This document shows, piece after piece, positions 35,733 through 47,353 of a DNA stretch of 64,000 nt. This DNA comes from Streptomyces roseifaciens (GTDB lineage Bacteria; Actinomycetota; Actinomycetes; Streptomycetales; Streptomycetaceae). Position 1 is the first letter of the stretch. Each line of letters starts with the position of its first letter. The notes beneath the pieces are model-generated. The model had not been told where the DNA came from, made no database searches, and saw only the letters and a list, made by a program, of their open reading frames with translations. A program made the translations under genes and the position numbers. Location: contig NZ_LNBE01000003.1 of the NCBI RefSeq assembly GCF_001445655.1, forward strand, positions 2,400,530 to 2,464,529. Direction: 5' to 3'.

Positions 35733-38705
35733 ATGAAGGCCCGCAAAGCGGACTCTGTGGCTGGCTACAGTCCGCTCGTGCCGGTGGAGTTTTTGACTGA
35801 CGAACAGGCGGAGGCGTACGGCGCCTTCACCGGGGTGCCCACGCGTCCGGAGCTGGAGCGCTTCTTCTTCCTGGACGACGCGGACCGTGATCTGATCGCG
35901 CTGCGTCGGTCGGGCGGGCACCGGCTGGGCATGGCGGTGCAGATCGGGACGGTCCGTTACATCGGCCGGTTCCTCGGGGACGATCCGCTGGCGGTGCCGT
36001 GGGAGGTCGTGGAGTACCTGGCCGGGCAGCTCGGCATCGAGGACACCTCGTGCGTGAAGCGGTATGCGGAACGGCGCAGGACGCCGTACGAGCACGCGCG
36101 GGAGATCCAGGAGCGGTTCCAGTACCGCGACTTCGGCGACCGGCAGTGGGGGCGGGAGTTCCGGGCCTTCCTGTACGGGCGGGCGTGGACGCACGCCGAG
36201 GGGCCGGTGGCGCTGTTCGACCACGCGGTGACCTGGCTGCGCCGGCACCGGGTGCTGCTGCCGGGTGTCTCGGTGCTGGCCCGGCAGGTGTCGGAGGCCC
36301 GCACGGTGGCCGAGCGGCGCCTGTACCAGTCGGTGGCGCGGGCCGCCCACCGCGTGGATTCGCAGCTCGCGCCGGCGCTGAAGACGCTGCTGGTCGTACC
36401 CGAGGGCAAGCGGGTCTCGGAGCTGGAGCGGCTGCGTACGCCGCCAGTGAAGTCGACGGGCACCGCGATGGTGCGGGCAATGGAACGGGTCGAGGAGATC
36501 TCTGCCTTCGGTCTGGGGCGGGTGAACCTTTCTTCGGTACCGGTGAACCGGCTGAACACGCTCGCCCGGTACGGGCAGCTGAGCAAGGCGCAGACGATCG
36601 AGCGGGCTCCCGAGCCGCGACAGACCGCCCTGTTGACGGCGGTGGTGCGCCAGCTGGAGGCGCAGGCGGTCGGTGACGCGCTGGATCTGTTCGCGGTGCT
36701 GATGGCGGACCGACTGATCAGCCCGGCCCGCCAGGCGTCGGAGAGGGACCGCCTGGCGATGCTGCCGCAGCCGGAGAAGGCGGCCCGCATCCTGGCGAAG
36801 GCATCGAAGATCCTGACCGAGGAGCTGGACCTGGTCGCCGAGGCTGGGACGGACCTGGACGTCGAGGCTGGGACGGACCTGGACGTCGGCGCGCTGTGGG
36901 CGGCGGTGGAGGAGGCCGTGCCGCGTACGGCGGTGGCCGGGGCGGTCGCGACGGTGGAGGCCCTGGTGCCGGAGGACGACGGGTCGGCCGAGGCGGCGAT
37001 GGGGGAGAAGCTGGCTCTGCGCTACAACACCGTCCGGCCGTTCCTGTCCCTGCTGGGCGAGTCGGACGCGCTCGGCGCTGCCCCGGCCGGGCGGCGGGTG
37101 CTCGCCGCGGTGCGCCGGTTGCCCGCGCTGTCCCGCCGCCGGGTCAAGGACCGGCCGCTGCTGCCCCGCGAGGTCGACGGCGAGTTGGTGCCGACGATGT
37201 GGAAGCGGGCGGTGTTCTCCAACTCGAAGCTGCCGCAGGGCGCGGTCGACCGTGACGCGTACGTGGTGTGCGTGCTGGAGCAGCTGCACCGCGCGCTGAA
37301 CCGGCGGGACGTGTTCGCCTCGCCGTCGAACCGGTGGGCGGACCCGCGCGCGAGGCTGCTGGACGGGCCGCGGTGGGAGGCGATGAAGGCGGACGTGCTA
37401 GCGGGCCTGTCCCTGTCCGAGGACGCCGTCGAGCACCTGGACCAGCTGATCCGGGGCCTGGATGCCGCGTGGCGGCAGATGGCCGACCGGCTGGAGGAGG
37501 CCGGGGATGAGGCGAAGGTGGAGGTCGTCGTCCCTGAGGGTGGCGGCCGGGCCGAGTTGTCGGTGGACAAGTTGGGTGCGGTGGGTGAGCCGGAGTCGCT
37601 GACCTGGCTGAAGCAGACCACGGAGGTGATGCTTCCCAGGATCGATCTGCCGGACCTGTTGTTCGAGGTCCACTCCTGGACCGGCTTTCTGGACTCCTTC
37701 AAGCACGTGTCCGACCGGCCCACCCGCATGGAGGGGCTGCTCGTCTCCCTGGTGGCACTGCTGGTGGCGGAGAGCTGCAACATCGGCCTGACCCCGGTCA
37801 TCGGTCATCGACGCCACCAACACCAACAAGGCGCTGACCCGCTCGCGGCTGTCCCACGTGGATCAGAACTACCTGCGCGCGGACACTATCGCCGCGGCGA
37901 ACGCCGCGCTGATCACCGCGCAGTTCCGTATCGAGCTGGCCCAGATATGGGGCGGTGGGCTGCTTGCCTCCGTCGACGGGCTGCGCTTCGTCTTCCCCGT
38001 CAAGAGCGTCAACACCGCTCCCTCGCCCAAATATTACGGATACAAGCGGGGGCTGACCTGGCTGAATGCCGTCAATGACCAGGTCGCGGGGATCGGCGCG
38101 ATGGTCGTGCGCGGTACCCCGCGCGACAGCCTGTTCACCCTGGACACCTTCCTCAACCTCAACGGCGGCGTGCGCCCCGAGATGCTCGCGACGGACAACG
38201 CCTCGTACTCCGACATGGCCTTCGGCCTGTACAAGATGCTCGGCTTCCGCTTCGCTCCGCGCTTCCGCGACCTCTCGGATCAGCGGTTCTGGCGTGCTGA
38301 CCTGCCCGACGGTGAGGCGCCGGCGGCCGGGTACGGGCCGTTGGAGGCCGTCGCCTGCAACAGGTGAACCTCAAGCGGATCGCCACGCACTGGCCGGACA
38401 TGCTCCGCGTCGCCGGGTCGCTCATCACGAACCAGGTCCGGGCCTACGACCTGCTGCGGATGTTCGGCCGCGAGGGCCACCCGACCCCGCTGGGTACCGC
38501 GTTCGCCGAGTACGGGCGCATCGACAAGACCATGCACCTGCTCGCTCTGGTCGACCCGGTCGACGACACCTACCGCCGGCTGATGAACCGGCAGCTGACC
38601 GTGCAGGAGTCGCGCCACCGGCTGGCCCGCGCGATCTGCCACGGCGGCCGCGGCCAGATCCGCCAGGCGTACCGCGAGGGCCAGGAGGACCTGTTGACCG
38701 AACTA
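35733..38705 (+). pseudogene. Tn3-family transposase (TnpA) with two frameshifts and no C-terminus
   Basis: ATG 35733 leads into the family N-terminus ('FLTDEQAEAYGAFTGVPTRP', 'ELERFFFLDDADRDLIALRR'), and the frame is intact for 690 residues to 'NIGLTPVI'. There a 7-bp tandem duplication (GGTCATC, 37796-37809) shifts the frame. The DDE domain continues in the next frame ('DATNTNKALTRSRLSHVDQN', 'LASVDGLRFVFPVKSVNT', 'LATDNASYSDMAFGLYK'), is shifted again at about 38365 by a lost base, and continues 'VNLKRIATHWPDMLRVAGSL' until it breaks off in 'YREGQED'. About 70 C-terminal residues are missing. Confidence 0.88.
36840..36887 (+). repeat. 24-bp in-frame tandem duplication inside tnpA
   Basis: Two exact 24-bp copies (36840-36863, 36864-36887) encode a repeated EAGTDLDV. 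The reading frame is preserved, so the copy predates or tolerates function. Confidence 0.9.
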
Positions 38706-38820
38706 CCGGGGTGTGAGCCGACGAGCCCCCGGAGATCGACGCACGGTGACGGGAGCATGCACCAGTCCGGTCGGCTTGCCTCGGAAGCCGTGCCGCACGA
38801 CCGTCCTGATGTGCTGTCAT

Positions 38821-38851
38821 CACGAGCTGTTGGAGACCACAGCAGCTCGTG
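38821..38851. promoter_or_regulatory. Inverted repeat at the start of the first recombinase gene
   Basis: CACGAGCTG (38821-38829) and CAGCTCGTG (38843-38851) are perfect 9-bp arms around a 13-nt gap, overlapping the most upstream GTG start (38849). It may be an operator or a recombinase-binding core site. Confidence 0.45.
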
Positions 38852-40054
38852 GAGGCTCAGGTGCAAGAGGGCATGCAGTTACGGGACGTCACGGCGGTCA
38901 CGGTGCCGAGGGTCGGCCGGGTCGAGGAGACCGGCGATCCGTCGCTGCCGTACCGGCTGCTCGACCGGGACGGGATCGAGGTGGCGGCAGTCACCGAGTT
39001 CCTGCTCGACATGCTCGCCGACGATGACAGCCCGGCTTCGCTCCGCTCCTACGCGTACGAGCTGCTGGCCTGGTTCCGGTTCCTGTGGGCCCTCGACGTT
39101 CCGTGGGACCGGGCCGGCCGGGCGGAGGCCCGGGATTTCGCCCTGTGGCTGAGGGTGGTCAAGAAGCCGCCGAGACCCTGGCGTCCGGACGCCCCGGCGC
39201 CCGGGTCGGTCAATCCGGTGACCGGCAAGCGGTACGCGGGCGAGAACTACGCGGCACGCACCCGGAGGCACGCGCGGGCAGTTGTCCGCAGCTTTTACGA
39301 GTACCACCGCGACATGCACGGACGGCCACTGCTCAACCCGTTCCCGAAGACCAAGCGCGCCGATGACGAGCACCTCAACGCCCACCACAACCCGCTGCAT
39401 GCCTTCAAGCACCCTGCCCGCCGGGCCCCCTACCAGCCGAAGGAGCCCCGGCGAACCCCGCGTGGCATCCCCGACCAGGCGTTCAACGAACTGTTCGCGG
39501 CCCTGCCCTCGCACCGCGACCGCGCGCTGGTCGCCTTCTACATTTCGGCCGGCCCCCGCGCCTCAGAACTCCTCGGCGTCAGCCGGGACCGGGTCAGCCC
39601 CGGTGACCAGACGATCGGTGTCATCCGCAAGGGCTCCCGGGCCCTGCAATGGATCCCCGCCTCCAGCGACGCGTTCGTATGGCTGCGGCTCTACCAGCAG
39701 CAGATTCGCCCGCAGGCCATCGACGGGCCGGAGGAGCCGCTGTGGTGGACTCTGCGGTGCCCGATCAGGCCGTTGAGCTACGACGCGGCCCGCATGGTGT
39801 TCACCCGGGCCAACGAGACGCTGGGAGCGAACTGGACCCTGCATGACCTGCGGCACAGCGCGGCCAAACGTATGGTGCGCGACCCCAAGCTCTCGCTCAC
39901 CGACGTCCAATGGGTCCTTGGCCATCTCCACATCAGCACCACGGAGCAGTACCTCAAGGCTCGGGAATTGCATCAGACGGGCGAGAAGTCGCAGGTCGCC
40001 AGCTCGGGGAGAGGGCCTGATGGACTCCAACGCTACTACGAAGCGGCCTCCTGA
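38849..40054 (+). CDS. Tyrosine site-specific recombinase, first of the operon (401 aa)
   Basis: It probably acts at the element's own ends. An N-terminal SAM-like core-binding domain (residues ~45-160, 'SPASLRSYAYELLAWFRFLW') precedes a catalytic domain with the full active site: Arg237 (GPRASELLGV), Lys261 region, His332-x-x-Arg335 (LHDLRHSAAKRM), His359 (LGHLHIS) and the Tyr368 nucleophile (TTEQYLK). ATG 38873 is an alternative start; GTG 38849 and 38861 lie in frame upstream. A 65-bp gap leads to the second recombinase. It is the first gene of a six-gene run on one strand. Confidence 0.88.
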   Translation: MEAQVQEGMQLRDVTAVTVPRVGRVEETGDPSLPYRLLDRDGIEVAAVTEFLLDMLADDDSPASLRSYAYELLAWFRFLWALDVPWDRAGRAEARDFALWLRVVKKPPRPWRPDAPAPGSVNPVTGKRYAGENYAARTRRHARAVVRSFYEYHRDMHGRPLLNPFPKTKRADDEHLNAHHNPLHAFKHPARRAPYQPKEPRRTPRGIPDQAFNELFAALPSHRDRALVAFYISAGPRASELLGVSRDRVSPGDQTIGVIRKGSRALQWIPASSDAFVWLRLYQQQIRPQAIDGPEEPLWWTLRCPIRPLSYDAARMVFTRANETLGANWTLHDLRHSAAKRMVRDPKLSLTDVQWVLGHLHISTTEQYLKARELHQTGEKSQVASSGRGPDGLQRYYEAAS

Positions 40055-40096
40055 TCAGGAAGTTTGCCAGACGGAACCCATCTGATGCAGGATTTG

Positions 40097-40112
40097 CCCT
40101 CCAGAAGGGAGG
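40097..40112 (+). promoter_or_regulatory. Hairpin hiding the ribosome site of the second recombinase
   Basis: CCCTCC (40097-40102) pairs with GGGAGG (40107-40112), which is the Shine-Dalgarno of the gene starting at 40120. Translation of the second recombinase may therefore need melting of this stem, for example by readthrough from upstream. Confidence 0.45.
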
Positions 40113-40119
40113 GTCTGGA

Positions 40120-41223
40120 GTGGTGCAAGAGCGAAGGGTGGCCCTGGCCGGTGCAGCTCATCTGGAGCTTGTCTCCGGGGTGATCCAGCTGCGTCCGGAG
40201 GACGCGATGGTCGATGCGATGCTGCGGGGCTGGCGGGCCCAGCAGATGTCCCGGGGTTTGAAGGAAGGCACGATCGCCGGGCGGGAACGGCTGATCCGGC
40301 GCTTCCATGAATTCACCAACGAGTACCCGTGGTCGTGGCTGCCGGGCCACATGGACGAGTGGTCGGCCTCGCTGACGGGCGAGAAGCACCTGGCACCGTC
40401 CACGATCCGCAGCTACCAAGGCGACGTTCGGCAGTTCACAGAGTTCCTCGTCGACGGCCGCTACGGCTGGGGGCCGGCCTGCGAGGACGCCTTCGGCACC
40501 CATCCAGTGGCGATCTGCCACGAGTGGAACACCATCGCCCATCTCAACGACTACGAGGGCGACCCGGAGGCCAGGCCGTTCACCCGGGAGGAGCTGCAGC
40601 GGTTTCTCGACTACGCCGACGATCAGGTCGAACGCGCGGTGAAGTCCAAGCGCAAGGGCGCCCTTGCTGCCTACCGCGACGCCACACTGTTCAAGGTCAT
40701 CTACGGGTGGGGTCTGCGTCGGACGGAGACTTCGAAGCTGGATGTCGTCGACTTCGGCCGCAACGCGAAGGCGCGACAGTTCGGCCGGTACGGCACGCTC
40801 AACGTCCGCTACGGCAAGGCGAAGAAGGGCCAGCCGCCACGGCGCCGGAACGTGCTGTCGGTGATGGACTGGGCGGTGGACGCGGTCCAGGACTATGTGG
40901 AGAACGTGCGGCCGCGGTTCGGCTGTGAGGACCACCCGGCGTTGTGGGTGACTGAGCGGGGAGGACGAGTCAAGCCCTCCGAGATCAACGCCCGGTTTGT
41001 GGCCTACCGGGACGCGTTGAAGCTCCCGAGGGAGCTCGTCCCCCACTCAATTCGCCACTCGTACGTCACGCATCTGACCGAGGACGGGGTTGACCGTCGG
41101 TTCATCCAGCAGCAAGTCGGCCACGAGTGCGACAGCTCCACCGCCATCTACACCCACGTCAGCGATGACTTCATGAACACTGCCCTGAGCAAGGCACTTG
41201 CCCCGGCGTTCGCCGGGACGTGA
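40120..41223 (+). CDS. Tyrosine site-specific recombinase, second of the operon (367 aa)
   Basis: GTG 40120 (or 40123) follows GGGAGG by 7 bp. The core-binding domain spans residues ~30-150 ('SRGLKEGTIAGRERLIRRF'). The catalytic residues are visible: Arg200 (YGWGLRRTETSKL), His309-x-x-Arg312 (PHSIRHSYVTHL), His335 (VGHECDS) and Tyr344 (TAIYTHV). It resembles XerC/D-like recombinases and is only distantly similar to the first one, so the two are not a recent duplication. It ends 17 bp before the XRE-like gene. Confidence 0.88.
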   Translation: MVQERRVALAGAAHLELVSGVIQLRPEDAMVDAMLRGWRAQQMSRGLKEGTIAGRERLIRRFHEFTNEYPWSWLPGHMDEWSASLTGEKHLAPSTIRSYQGDVRQFTEFLVDGRYGWGPACEDAFGTHPVAICHEWNTIAHLNDYEGDPEARPFTREELQRFLDYADDQVERAVKSKRKGALAAYRDATLFKVIYGWGLRRTETSKLDVVDFGRNAKARQFGRYGTLNVRYGKAKKGQPPRRRNVLSVMDWAVDAVQDYVENVRPRFGCEDHPALWVTERGGRVKPSEINARFVAYRDALKLPRELVPHSIRHSYVTHLTEDGVDRRFIQQQVGHECDSSTAIYTHVSDDFMNTALSKALAPAFAGT

Positions 41224-41240
41224 CGAGGAAGGACCCGACG

Positions 41241-41585
41241 ATGGCCGCCAAGCTCGACTACCAGTGGCACCTGCGCAAGATCATGGCGGACCGCGGGATG
41301 TTTTCCACGACCGATCTGATCGCTCCGCTGGAGGAACGCGGCATCACACTGTCCTCCAGCCAGGTCTACCGGCTCGTCGTGGATCGGCCCGAGCGGCTCA
41401 GCCTGAAGATCCTCATGGCCCTGCTGGACATCCTGGACTGCACGATGGACGACCTCATCGAGCCGATCGCAACGGCCGGCGCCGTGAAGAAGCCGAAGAA
41501 GGTGGCGGCAGGCGGGGCACCCGCCGCCGACGGAGTCGGTGACCTGCGGCCCAAGCGGGCCCGGATCGCACCGGTGGACCGTTGA
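41241..41585 (+). CDS. Small Cro/CI-type HTH protein (114 aa)
   Basis: ATG 41241 lies 8 bp behind GGAAGGA; an upstream GTG at 41220 would overlap the previous stop but lacks a ribosome site. Residues ~5-70 form an HTH ('LRKIMADRGMFSTTDLIAPL', 'GITLSSSQVYRLVVDRPERL', 'SLKILMALLDILDCTMDDLI') typical of small XRE-like proteins carried with integrases. The C-terminal 40 residues are a basic, disordered tail (KKPKKVAAGG, RPKRARIAPVDR). It probably regulates the recombinase operon. Its stop overlaps the next start (TTGA). Confidence 0.82.
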   Translation: MAAKLDYQWHLRKIMADRGMFSTTDLIAPLEERGITLSSSQVYRLVVDRPERLSLKILMALLDILDCTMDDLIEPIATAGAVKKPKKVAAGGAPAADGVGDLRPKRARIAPVDR

Positions 41586-43996
41586 ACGGGTACGCGGAGG
41601 AGGTTCTGGCCGATCCGGTCGGCATGGTCGTGCGGCTGGTCGGGAACGTTGAGCGGCACCTGCACGCCGACCGCGTTCGCGAGATCGTCTGCACGGTGAT
41701 GCGTGAACGAGCCGGTCGTCGACGCCTCGCCCAGGCCCTGCATGACGATCCGTCGCTGCTGCGGACCGGACGGCCTCCGGCCCCTTTCTGCGTCGCGCGG
41801 TTGCTGATGGCTCTTCGCGAAGCAGGCGCCCAGGACATCGCGCTTCCCCGCTGCGGTGAGTGCGGCCGCGGACGCCCCTACGTGGGCAGCCGCACCGGCG
41901 GCCGGTGGGGATGCTCGCCCTGCTTCGACAAACCGGCCGTCTGCGCGGGCTGCCGCCAGCAGCGACGCGTCGTCAGCCGGGACCGCCACGGCGACCCTCG
42001 TTGCGCAAAGTGCCCGGACACAAACGGCGATCCACTCGCCGAACTCACCAGACTCGTCAACGCCGTCGATCCCGTGCTGACCGCCGACACTGTTCGATCA
42101 GCCCTCGAACGCGCCACCGTCCGAACGGCTGGCCAGCGCCGCCTCGCCTGGGCGGTCATCGCCCAGCCCGACCTGCTGACCGGCGCCGGCTACGACGCCC
42201 CGACCCCCGCCGTCCTGCGGTTCATCAGCGAACTCGTCCAAGCAGGGGCCACGACGGTGGTCAACCCGGCCTGCTTCCGCTGCCAGGAGGTCAAGACACT
42301 GTCGAAGCTGCTGGACGGCAAACGGGTCTGCCGCAACTGCTTCGCCCGCAACTCGGCCGTGCCCTGCATCCGCTGCGGAGCTATCCGCGAGCCCGCCGCC
42401 CGGGATGCCGAAGGGCACCCGCTCTGCCCTAACTGCCTCGTCAGCGACCCCGTCAACCTGGAGGAATGCTGCGGCTGCGGGCGCCGCCAGACAGTCGCCG
42501 TCCGCCTTCCCGATGGACCCCGTTGCGCCAACTGCCGACCAAGGAACGCTACCCAGTGCGGCATCTGCGGACGGACAGCGGTCTGTGAGATTTCCCGGGT
42601 CACGGGCAACCCCTGGTGCAACCGGTGCCAGCTGCGGTGGACACCTTGCAGCAGCTGCGGCACCGTCGACCACGTCCGCGGCGGTACCTGGGACGCGCCT
42701 TTGTGCGCGAAGTGCACCAACCCGGATCCGGACTTCTGGGGCCGCTGCCCGGTCTGCCGCACCACATGGCAGCTCAGTACCCGCCCCTGCCAGCGATGCG
42801 CCCTCGACCAGTTGGTACGCGACCTCCTTGGCGACAACACCGGCACAGTCCGCCAGGACCTCGTCCCCCTCTACGAGGCACTGTCCGGAGCCGAACGGCC
42901 CACCAGCACCATGTTCTGGCTATCGGGCTCGAAGGTCAGCATCCTGCTCCAGCAGATCGGGCGCGACGAACGACCCGTCACGCACGAGACGCTCGACGAG
43001 CTGCCCGCGAGCAAGGTTCTCGCACATCTCCGCAGCGTCATGGTCGCCACCGGTGCACTGCCGGCCCGCGACGAACGCCTCGTCGCCCTGGAGGGCTGGA
43101 TCACCTCGGCAGTCCAGGCCCGCACAGACCCCACCGAACGCCGGATCCTGCACGGATACGCAAGCTGGCATCACCTGCGGCGGCTTCGACGACGCCTCGG
43201 CAAGGAACACACCACCCATCTCCAAGCCCTGAACGTCCGCTGCCACGTCACCGCAGCGGCCAACTTCCTCGACTGGCTGACCGGCAATGGCCTGACGCTC
43301 AGCGACTGCACCCAGCCTGACCTGGAGCGATGGACCTCTGACGCCGATGAGAGTTACCGGGACGAGACCGGCCACTTCGTCCGCTGGTCGGTACAGCACC
43401 GGCACGCCCGCGGCCTGACCTACGGCACTGTCCGCTGGACGGGCCCCCTCAGCACCATCGACAGCGAGAAGCGCTGGTCAGATGCCCGACGGCTTCTCCA
43501 CGACGACACCCTGCCCATCCCGGACCGCGTCGCCGGACTGCTGCTGGTCCTCTACGCGCAGAAGATCGCCAGCATCAGCCGGCTCACTGTCGACGACGTT
43601 CACCTCGACAACGACACCGTCGCGATCACGTTCGGCACCTCGCCGGTCGTCCTACCCGAGCCGCTGGCCGCACTCGTCCGCGAGCTCGTCGCGACCCGCC
43701 GAGGCAAAGCCAAGATCGGAACCCCCGAGGACGTCCCCTGGCTGTTTCCCGGCGGCCGCCCAGGACACCCCCTCGGCGATGACCGGATCAGCCAACGTCT
43801 CCACAAGATCGGGATCCGGCCCCGGCAGGACCGCTCCACCGCACTGTTTACCCTCGCCGCCGAACTGCCCGCCGCCATCCTCGCCCGGGTACTCGGCGTC
43901 CACATCCAAGTCGCCGTCCAATGGCAGAAGGCGTCAGCCGGCGACTGGGCCTCTTACGCCGCCGATGTCAGCCGCCGTGTCCCGGAGAACCAATGA
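41582..43996 (+). CDS. Tandem zinc-ribbon protein with degenerate recombinase-like C-terminus (804 aa)
   Basis: It starts at TTG 41582, overlapping the XRE stop by 4 bp. Residues ~90-410 contain about seven CxxC pairs in zinc-ribbon spacing ('CGECGRGRPY', 'CAGCRQQRRV', 'CFRCQEVKTL', 'CIRCGAIRE', 'CCGCGRRQTV', 'CGICGRTAVC', 'CSSCGTVDHV', 'CPVCRTTWQL'). The C-terminal half resembles a tyrosine-recombinase fold ('LLLVLYAQKIASISRLTVDD', 'VPWLFPGGRPGHPLGDDRIS', 'ILARVLGVHIQVAVQWQKAS'). However, the catalytic Arg, His-x-x-Arg and Tyr positions are not conserved. It may be a DNA-binding accessory subunit of the recombinases. Confidence 0.75.
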   Translation: MNGYAEEVLADPVGMVVRLVGNVERHLHADRVREIVCTVMRERAGRRRLAQALHDDPSLLRTGRPPAPFCVARLLMALREAGAQDIALPRCGECGRGRPYVGSRTGGRWGCSPCFDKPAVCAGCRQQRRVVSRDRHGDPRCAKCPDTNGDPLAELTRLVNAVDPVLTADTVRSALERATVRTAGQRRLAWAVIAQPDLLTGAGYDAPTPAVLRFISELVQAGATTVVNPACFRCQEVKTLSKLLDGKRVCRNCFARNSAVPCIRCGAIREPAARDAEGHPLCPNCLVSDPVNLEECCGCGRRQTVAVRLPDGPRCANCRPRNATQCGICGRTAVCEISRVTGNPWCNRCQLRWTPCSSCGTVDHVRGGTWDAPLCAKCTNPDPDFWGRCPVCRTTWQLSTRPCQRCALDQLVRDLLGDNTGTVRQDLVPLYEALSGAERPTSTMFWLSGSKVSILLQQIGRDERPVTHETLDELPASKVLAHLRSVMVATGALPARDERLVALEGWITSAVQARTDPTERRILHGYASWHHLRRLRRRLGKEHTTHLQALNVRCHVTAAANFLDWLTGNGLTLSDCTQPDLERWTSDADESYRDETGHFVRWSVQHRHARGLTYGTVRWTGPLSTIDSEKRWSDARRLLHDDTLPIPDRVAGLLLVLYAQKIASISRLTVDDVHLDNDTVAITFGTSPVVLPEPLAALVRELVATRRGKAKIGTPEDVPWLFPGGRPGHPLGDDRISQRLHKIGIRPRQDRSTALFTLAAELPAAILARVLGVHIQVAVQWQKASAGDWASYAADVSRRVPENQ

Positions 43997-44646
43997 AGCT
44001 ACCCATCACCATCCACCAAGCACGGCTCGGATCCACGGAGTTCAAGGTCATCCGACCAGCCCGGCCCCTGGTCCACGCAGTGCTCATCGACCACGATCGG
44101 CACCTGGATACCTACCTCGATCAGGACGCCGCCCAGCGAATCGGTGGGCTATGGAAGCTCGCCGCCTCTTCACCGCGCTCGCTGGTCCACCTGCCGATGC
44201 GGGGGAACCGTGGCCCCTCCCGCGAGCTGCCAGAAGACGGCACACGGCAGCTTGATCTCGTGCTGCTGCACCACTCGCTCCAGTTCGCACCCTCACGCTG
44301 GAAGGAAATACGAGGACGGCTCGGCCCAGGGCGGCCGCAGACCGTGACGCTGCCTGGCGCAGGACACACCGACGAAGCCGTGACTGACCACGAGGCACGG
44401 CACTACCAGGAGAACCGGGATCTGTTTCACCAGCATCTCCACGCCGAGACCCTGTTCATGACCGGCAGCGCGAAGGTGTTCAGGGACACCGCCCGGCACT
44501 TCTTCGACGTCGCCCGAAACGGCCCCGGATACGTCCCCGTCCATCCGAGCTACCCGCGCTTCTGCACCGAACTCCACTCCAACGACGGCATTCTCGGTGA
44601 CGCGCGCGAGATCCACATCGAGTACTGCGACCAGTGGGACGCATGA
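43993..44646 (+). CDS. Unknown protein encoded in the recombinase operon (217 aa)
   Basis: ATG 43993 overlaps the preceding stop by 4 bp (ATGA), so it is translationally coupled to the zinc-ribbon gene. There is no signal peptide, membrane segment or Cys cluster. Visible features are 'KVIRPARPLVHAVLIDHDRH', 'LDLVLLHHSLQFAPSRWKEI', a His-rich middle ('HTDEAVTDHEARHYQENRDL', 'FHQHLHAETLFMTGSAKVFR') and an acidic end. The His clusters could bind metal. No family was recognised. It is either part of the recombination machinery or cargo. Confidence 0.72.
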   Translation: MKLPITIHQARLGSTEFKVIRPARPLVHAVLIDHDRHLDTYLDQDAAQRIGGLWKLAASSPRSLVHLPMRGNRGPSRELPEDGTRQLDLVLLHHSLQFAPSRWKEIRGRLGPGRPQTVTLPGAGHTDEAVTDHEARHYQENRDLFHQHLHAETLFMTGSAKVFRDTARHFFDVARNGPGYVPVHPSYPRFCTELHSNDGILGDAREIHIEYCDQWDA

Positions 44647-45251
44647 CCCCGACCGACAGGACCCCACCGACCATGACGTTCAACGATCACCTCCAGCATC
44701 TCGTCGAGAGGGCCCTCACATCCATCCCGGCCGCCGACGCCGGCGACATCTACGCTGTCTCCTTCCTCATCGACAACGAGGACGACGACCCTCGTCAGCC
44801 AACCTTGACGATCGGCTACAACACTGAAACTCAGGCCCAACGCAGCATCCAGGACGCCTCTGACCAGGCAGAAGCCCGCTGGAACTACGCTTTCTGGATC
44901 CAGAACGAGCTGACTGTGGTCGGCGACCTGACCAGCGACCCCGCCGGAGCCACAGCTCGCCAGGAGTGGATCAGCGACCTCGGACTTTGGTACGCCGAGC
45001 CGACCGACCTCGCCGACTGGGATGCAGTCATCGGGCCACTCGCCGCGCAGATCGAGGCCCGCTTCAGCCAGACCTGCTGCCAGCTCGCCCGAACCCTCCA
45101 TACGACCGGCGTCATCGAAAGATCTGTCGGCCGAACCGTGCCGGTGATCGTCCACGAGCTGGAGTACTACGAGGCGATCGCCCGGCAGACCCAGGCCGCC
45201 AACCCTCCCGGCCTCGCCGACGAGTTCACCTCATGGGTCCGCAACGGCTGA
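44643..45251 (+). CDS. Unknown protein, DUF4303-like, last gene of the recombinase operon (202 aa)
   Basis: ATG 44643 overlaps the previous stop by 4 bp; a second ATG at 44673 (MTFNDHLQHLVERALTSIPA) is also plausible. The N-terminal half, 'AGDIYAVSFLIDNEDDDPRQ', 'PTLTIGYNTETQAQRSIQDA' and 'EARWNYAFWIQNELTVVGDL', recalls DUF4303 proteins, some of which are predicted immunity-type proteins. The call is tentative. The protein is acidic and soluble. About 30 bp later the sequence changes to an integrase remnant, which may mark the end of the operon. Confidence 0.65.
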   Translation: MTPTDRTPPTMTFNDHLQHLVERALTSIPAADAGDIYAVSFLIDNEDDDPRQPTLTIGYNTETQAQRSIQDASDQAEARWNYAFWIQNELTVVGDLTSDPAGATARQEWISDLGLWYAEPTDLADWDAVIGPLAAQIEARFSQTCCQLARTLHTTGVIERSVGRTVPVIVHELEYYEAIARQTQAANPPGLADEFTSWVRNG

Positions 45252-45279
45252 GGCATTCGGACAGTTCCAATACCCGACT

Positions 45280-45815
45280 CCACCATTAGGGACCAGCGAT
45301 TCCGGTTTCCGGGCCGAGGTTGAAAGCGAGCAGGCGATCGCGCGCGGCGAGGTCTACGTGGAGATGATCGACTCCCACCAGCACGCGGGACTGACCGGTC
45401 CGTCTGCCGAAGAGGCAGCCCGTCGACTCACAGACTTCGGCGAGCGCGCGCAGTTTCAGGGCCAGGTCGCGCTGGACAGACACCGTCTCAAAAGGATCAT
45501 GAAGCGTCACGACCCGGCGATCTATCCCGGCGAATACATCACCTGCGTCAACGATCCGGCCAAGGCCCTCTGCGAGAAAGCCCGCCGCGGCAACAGCGAA
45601 GGACTTCCCTCGCACGGCGGCTGCCTGCCGTTGGCCTGCCGAAACGTCGCACTGACCGCCGAGAACATCGCCGCCTGGCAACGCGAGATCGTCCGCATCG
45701 ACGGCCGCATCGCCTCGCGGCCGACGCTGCCACCCCGCCTTCGCCAGCTCCTTGAGAGCAGACGGGCCGAGATCGTCGAGTTCCTGACGGCGAACGGGCA
45801 GGAGGCTGTTCCGGC

Positions 45816-45819
<4 letters not shown>
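45280..45819 (+). pseudogene. C-terminal zinc-binding part of a large integrase (TnpB-like)
   Basis: The open stretch starts about 45255-45280 without a convincing start and reads 'GTSDSGFRAEVESEQAIARG', the segment that normally follows the Tyr nucleophile in large Tn554/TnpB-type integrases. It continues 'DPAIYPGEYITCVNDPAKAL', 'CEKARRGNSEGLPSHGGCLP', 'LACRNVALTAENIAAWQREI' and a helical end. The Cys residues probably bind zinc. The catalytic domain is missing. ATG 45364 could give a shorter product. The stop overlaps the next ATG by 4 bp (ATGA at 45816). Confidence 0.6.

Positions 45820-47353
<1,534 letters not shown>

Follow-up and report, generated by a model that had tools for sequence, protein, structure and literature searches.

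A putative site-specific transposon of Streptomyces roseifaciens inserted past the active-site codon of a tyrosine-recombinase gene

A segment of Streptomyces roseifaciens DNA, positions 39956-45288 of the 64,000-nucleotide stretch analysed here (the window; contig NZ_LNBE01000003.1, positions 2,400,530 to 2,464,529, forward strand), is very probably a site-specific transposon with a core of three genes, B, X and Z, and one passenger slot, here filled by genes U and V. It belongs to a clade that integrates one codon past the active-site tyrosine in the tyrosine-recombinase genes of other mobile elements. The ends, the target, the in-frame re-tailing of the interrupted gene, the exchangeable passengers and near-identical copies at different sites are all demonstrated at the sequence level (Table 1). 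The initial annotation had described six genes running in one direction, A, B, X, Z, U and V in the present nomenclature, and these are present as described. However, it had taken them for a single machine, whereas A is the target, an older recombinase gene that the element has interrupted: the match to intact A stops exactly at 39955, and relatives of the element lie behind very different recombinase genes.

Table 1. Features of the element and its flanks (window positions; a slash marks the insertion point)
Feature	Position	Strand	Basis or remark
A, interrupted target gene, tyrosine recombinase (..GHLHISTTEQYL/)	38849..39955	+	PF00589; intact homologue L053
Mobile element	39956..45288	+	5333 bp; breakpoints from intact flank homologues and from relatives
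Element-encoded in-frame tail, 32 codons + stop, KARELHQTGEKSQVASSGRGPDGLQRYYEAAS	39956..40054	+	open frame across relatives
First six bases, AAGGCT	39956..39961	+	relatives mostly AACCCT, also GACCCT, AAGCCT
Conserved left end, CGGGAATTGCATCAGACGGG	39962..39981	+	pattern search of 392 genomes
Inverted copy of inner left end (39969-39981), TGCATCAGACGGG / CCCATCTGATGCA	40077..40089	-	just upstream of B
B, catalytic tyrosine recombinase, 367 aa	40120..41223	+	PF00589, E 5.9e-20
X, small HTH_26 protein, start ATG 41241 or GTG 41220	41220..41585	+	PF13443, E 1e-15
Z, degenerate recombinase with zinc ribbons	41582..43996	+	residue alignment and library scan
U, passenger, 217 aa, weak SUFU-like fold in model	43993..44646	+	slot comparison and AlphaFold model
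V, passenger, 202 aa	44643..45251	+	slot comparison and structure model
Conserved right end, TTCCAATACCCGACTCCACCATTA	45265..45288	+	pattern search of 392 genomes
Right flank, C-terminal piece of a different tyrosine recombinase, from Tyr+2 (GTSDSGFRAEV..)	45289..45819	+	L055, L056

The comparison of empty and occupied borders that the initial annotation had proposed fixed the ends at 39956 and 45288. An intact A gene carried by a plasmid of Streptomyces globosus (L053) is identical to the window at 92.4% of positions over 1355 bp, with the match ending at the left junction, and another sequence (L055) shows 92.7% DNA identity to the right flank over 899 bp, beginning exactly at 45289. The uninterrupted proteins read STTEQYL/EPAEDE (L053) and IQMFEGYA/GTSDSGF (L056), and in both of them the break falls one codon past the catalytic tyrosine. 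Two U-bearing loci that also have B, X and Z (L004 and L016) match the DNA of the window only at about 39960-45289, and a second copy (L002/L140), consisting of a Z fragment, has the right end of the window copy (hereafter W) with a different gene after Z. Because these comparisons fix the limits, the element is placed at 39956-45288 and starts inside the 3' end of A. The second copy, L140 (G000:C3:2497758-2499210), is truncated and lies in the genome of the window; its right flank is the C-terminus of another recombinase.

The right end is an imperfect inverted match of the left end (CAATACCCGA / TCGGGAATTG), the distances of this inverted pair to the two junctions are unequal, and the left junction carries six somewhat variable bases, which could possibly be a carried spacer. 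The inverted left-end copy upstream of B might be an operator or a second recombinase site. The two flanks of W come from two different recombinase genes and make it a chimeric copy, and L118 and L159 also look chimeric. The simplest explanation for the flanks of W would be recombination between two inserted copies.

The target was surveyed in 392 genomes of the genus, including that of the window, with each end motif searched alone and flanks ignored. The left-end motif was found at 39 places in 30 genomes (reversed-pattern control, 0) and the right-end motif at 54 places in 45 genomes (control, 1). The 39 left ends were W, 14 loci and 24 newly fetched places; eight were dropped because B was missing next to them or because their flank was absent or masked, leaving 31 with a readable flank and a whole or partial B gene. 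Of these 31, 26 (26 of the 27 in the main clade) immediately follow TAY-NNN within a tyrosine-recombinase open reading frame (ORF). With a profile derived from the interrupted genes collected first, 12 newly fetched recombinase flanks scored E values from 7e-23 to 6e-5, and eight other ranked new flanks only >0.6. On the right side, 41 of the 54 flanks run on as tyrosine-recombinase tails (37 assigned by similarity to intact recombinase tails or to other two-ended copies, and four through reading of both ends). PF00589 was matched by 14 of the 18 interrupted ORFs of two-ended elements, and also by L153, L160 and L170, while H359 and Y368 (A numbering) are invariant in all 18 interrupted genes. 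The genes upstream of B come from many recombinase families and are 15-52% identical to A.

When the flanks of 27 two-ended copies were rejoined, an intact recombinase aligned over the join in 26, and 11 of the 27 were gap-free near the join with at least 40% identity on the right side. An empty site for L104 is present on a plasmid of Streptomyces sp. S8; the intact recombinase there reads TTQGYY/RVTEK and matches the right flank of L104 at 95.5% identity over 904 bp. Near-identical copies also occupy different sites within single genomes. Three distinct recombinase genes of G090 (interrupted at LTTELYV/, SSTMRYV/ and STTTRYI/) each contain a copy, and these copies are 100% identical over 4959 bp. 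The three copies of G158 share at least 99.8% identity; two of them lie in one type of recombinase gene, with flanks 97% identical over 300 bp, and the third in a recombinase gene of another type. The element has also entered B genes belonging to its own wider family (L097, L133 and the Pseudonocardia plasmid copy L051). Both L051 and L142, a copy at SSTMRYV/ on a plasmid of Candidatus Mycobacterium methanotrophicum, occupy the same target position as the copies described above.

Several observations weigh against this interpretation. All four left ends of a sister clade (L154, L157, L165 and L171) lie outside recombinase genes, three of them in genes resembling 2'-5' RNA ligases (the Pfam cut-off is passed by L157 and L171 but not by L154), and the main-clade copy L129 is without an assigned target gene. 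A Rhodococcus plasmid copy (L141, around 3368) has the same left end behind a stretch ending DNALAETTVGLYK/, which has no Pfam hit and presumably resembles the C-terminus of an IS3-type transposase. On the right side, 13 of the 54 ends were unclassified. Some joins fit poorly, with 3/16 identities in W and 9/36 in L118 on the right side, and with five gap columns near the join in each of L149 and L159; the misfits of W and L118 are what would be expected of chimeras. Base counts at 30 target sites resemble those at 27 uninterrupted recombinase genes. In L159 and L164 the cut lies one codon later, after a second tyrosine, which suggests that the DNA and not the active-site tyrosine itself is read. 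The mobility of the element is itself read from sequence comparison, and the constraint on the tail described below is weak evidence for selection on a protein.

In tyrosine recombinases every catalytic residue is encoded before this cut point. The insertion in A, one codon past its catalytic tyrosine, leaves the catalytic residues of the victim intact and exchanges its native C-terminal tail for one encoded by the element. Since the cut falls past the last catalytic residue, the victim would keep its active site and lose its native tail, which would probably end its normal partnership, and the element would be left inside a transcribed gene. The new tail follows the pattern ..[N/D/K]P-RELHQTGEKSQVA.., and its full 32 residues are open in frame in 17 of 18 elements, L099 stopping after 16. 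In 14 of the 18 (L099, L129, L102 and L103 were left out), the two alternative frames of the region contain stops in 7 and 9 elements, and the ratio of nonsynonymous to synonymous differences (pN/pS) is 0.67 in the tail frame compared with 0.95 and 1.24 in the others. This is modest evidence that the tail may be translated.

Within the ends only B is a catalytic recombinase. It scores 72.2 bits against PF00589 (cut-off 27.1) and is thus a member of the tyrosine recombinase family. In Z, the column of the catalytic tyrosine holds tryptophan in 28 of 28 sequences, and the protein has eight paired CxxC ribbons. X had no match named TnpC in the library scan, which did not include a direct comparison of X with TnpC. 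The view of the initial annotation that this is a recombinase-driven mobile element with a plan other than Tn554 or RIT is upheld.

The slot between Z and the right end holds one or two genes, which are of unrelated kinds (U, U with V, or others). Publicly annotated occupants include GNAT acetyltransferases (L046 and L050), SMI1/KNR4 with NudC (L047) and an SDR oxidoreductase directly after Z (L145); we take the passenger of L048 to be nitrilase-like and further passengers to be GNAT- or SDR-like. A scan of GTDB species genomes for U returned 43 loci, and only four of these (L004, L007, L016 and L029) have a match to more than one fifth of Z beside U, the other 39 having none. The initial annotation had considered the two last proteins either machinery or protected cargo. 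The cargo part stands, whereas the machinery part is contradicted by the GNAT, SMI1/KNR4, SDR and other genes that relatives have in place of U and V and by those 39 loci, in which U occurs unlinked to such a match. Structure prediction, also proposed there, gave a partial answer: the AlphaFold model of U (predicted local distance difference test score, pLDDT, 86.9) has Suppressor of fused as its nearest fold, with a weak match, and the model of V (pLDDT 77) matched no known fold. SUFU-like and SUKH proteins are known immunity proteins, which makes an immunity-type role of some passengers worth considering. In eight loci (L034-L037 and L039-L042) a U homologue stands alone, as a single gene within a common neighbourhood, and these loci are perhaps a resident source of the passenger.

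It could be supposed that A is a true part of a two-recombinase, Tn554-like machine and that the left junction is only the place where A genes diverge fast. Most complete copies do have a recombinase gene before B, in the same orientation and frame. However, this explanation is almost certainly wrong: the upstream genes are as diverse as described above, in many copies the right flank supplies the C-terminus that the upstream gene lacks, intact A genes (L053, L054 and L057) overlap their own second recombinase downstream by 4 bp, some copies have no upstream recombinase at all (L154, L157 and L171), and the empty sites contradict it. It is also very unlikely that the preference arises from selection or sampling, with loose targeting and survival only in dispensable mobile-element genes. 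Although recombinase genes of old elements are dispensable, and a weight matrix of the 20 bases before the cut would have about 450 matches per 8.6-Mb genome at the median score (an upper figure, because the background held the target sites themselves and many recombinases), survival leaves unexplained why a single place in the gene is cut, within one codon, in 26 of 27 cases, and other dispensable genes are scarcely hit.

A functional hijack, in which the catalytic domain of the victim with its new tail works with, or is controlled by, B and Z so that the chimera helps the element to move, seems rather unlikely. The position of the cut just past the last catalytic residue, the tail in frame in nearly all elements and the many interrupted ORFs that remain open speak for it. 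On the other hand, the sister clade has a similar in-frame tail in non-recombinase genes, so that fusion to a recombinase is not always needed; the weak constraint on the tail could reflect DNA binding; and some victims are short remnants (109 codons in L004, 123 in L138). Returning to insertion at a specific site, a wider proposal is put forward only tentatively: the clade may home to the active-site codons of tyrosine-recombinase genes and make catalytically intact chimeras, so that the recombinases of rivals become a landing pad and possibly a subunit of its own, and recombination between copies shuffles recombinase domains, as in the window.

As for the mechanism, B would cut and join DNA, X and Z would be accessory, and movement would involve a circular form of the element, as with strand-biased circularizing integrative elements (SE) or GInt elements. 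DNA of about 40 bp encoding the conserved GH..TT..Y motif would be read by B, X or the zinc ribbons of Z. With a weight matrix of 42 bases that takes in the GH codons, 18 of 1.76 million positions, a set that included the training sites, reached the median score or exceeded it, and this specificity suggests that DNA coding for the GH..TT..Y stretch could carry enough information.

Comparison with known systems draws on portions of the published accounts. Tn554 and related actinobacterial transposons are likewise compact and combine a recombinase-like protein of normal length with an abnormally long one (PMC3414803). However, Tn554 has two catalytic recombinases, whereas only B is catalytic here and A lies outside the ends, the long protein Z lacks the catalytic tyrosine and has zinc ribbons, and the third core gene encodes a helix-turn-helix protein. 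Pairs of a short and a long tyrosine-based site-specific recombinase (Famint36/41) without TnpC were reported from Streptomyces and Rhodococcus plasmids (PMC3414803) and may belong to the present family. SE elements resemble it in having a multi-gene core and a recombinase-like protein without the catalytic motif, and one of them lies in insJ of IS3 (PMC10214605). SE elements have imperfect terminal inverted repeats (13-19 bp) and a 6-bp spacer, to which the unequally placed inverted pair and the six variable bases of the left junction may correspond here, and they are further characterised by a strand-biased circle and the lack of an empty donor site. They differ in having two RHRY recombinases with Tfp and Srap (intA-tfp-intB-srap) and were reported from Gammaproteobacteria, and the parts of that account covered describe no preference for recombinase genes (PMC10214605). 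Judged by gene count and residues only, the present core of three genes, one of them with a catalytic tyrosine, is not that of an SE. GInt elements also have a core operon at one end with variable cargo directly after it (PMC5385486) and one core protein without the catalytic motif (Fig. 1 legend, PMC10214605). Yet they have four gin genes (ginABCD) and direct imperfect repeats of 10-11 nt, and their target in the Pseudomonas strains of that account is an ABC-transporter gene (PMC5385486); they are set apart here by gene count, without sequence comparison. RIT elements have three adjacent catalytic recombinases, compared with one inside the ends here. Like the Tn5053 'res site hunters' and helper-embedded phage-inducible chromosomal islands, the present element seeks functions of other mobile elements, but those target res sites or prophage late genes, according to the portions covered, and not recombinase active-site codons. 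No account of recombinase genes as a preferred target was found in the literature searched, including the portions of PMC10214605, PMC5385486 and PMC3414803. The element is built like Tn554, SE and GInt elements, with another core and an unusual target. Integration into a single conserved gene is common among such elements, but we know of no other that selects the active-site region of so diverse a family of enzymes, including recombinases of its own kind.

The surroundings of the element and its more distant relatives show further features. Upstream, at 35733-38716, a Tn3-family transposase gene is spread over several frames, with a 781-aa ORF (DUF4158 and DDE_Tnp_Tn3) continued by a 169-aa ORF in another frame. 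Downstream, 45289-47353 is a graveyard of further recombinase pieces and small proteins, the latter presumably TnpC-like, and the ORF at 46214-47353 has, by eye, an apparent uninterrupted target site of the kind hit in L114. In the sister clade (L154, L157, L171 and L165, with L127) the left end differs slightly (CGGGAGTTGCATC), and the insertions are in genes resembling 2'-5' RNA ligases and in others. A left and a right end of this clade, as presumably paired, are 17-18 kb apart in G074 and in G023, and it may therefore carry much larger cargo. More distant elements (L161, L163 and L143) have the left end GGGGAATTGCATC; the gene that precedes L161 and L143 is conserved, ends in ..DRR[ED]PLLW/ and represents a third type of target.

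Based on the results of this study, the element offers a natural test system for a recombinase that would recognise a degenerate DNA target encoding a protein motif. It also points to a way in which mobile elements may disable or capture each other, and to an exchangeable passenger slot, with some genes perhaps immunity-like, that is carried into mobile-element graveyards.
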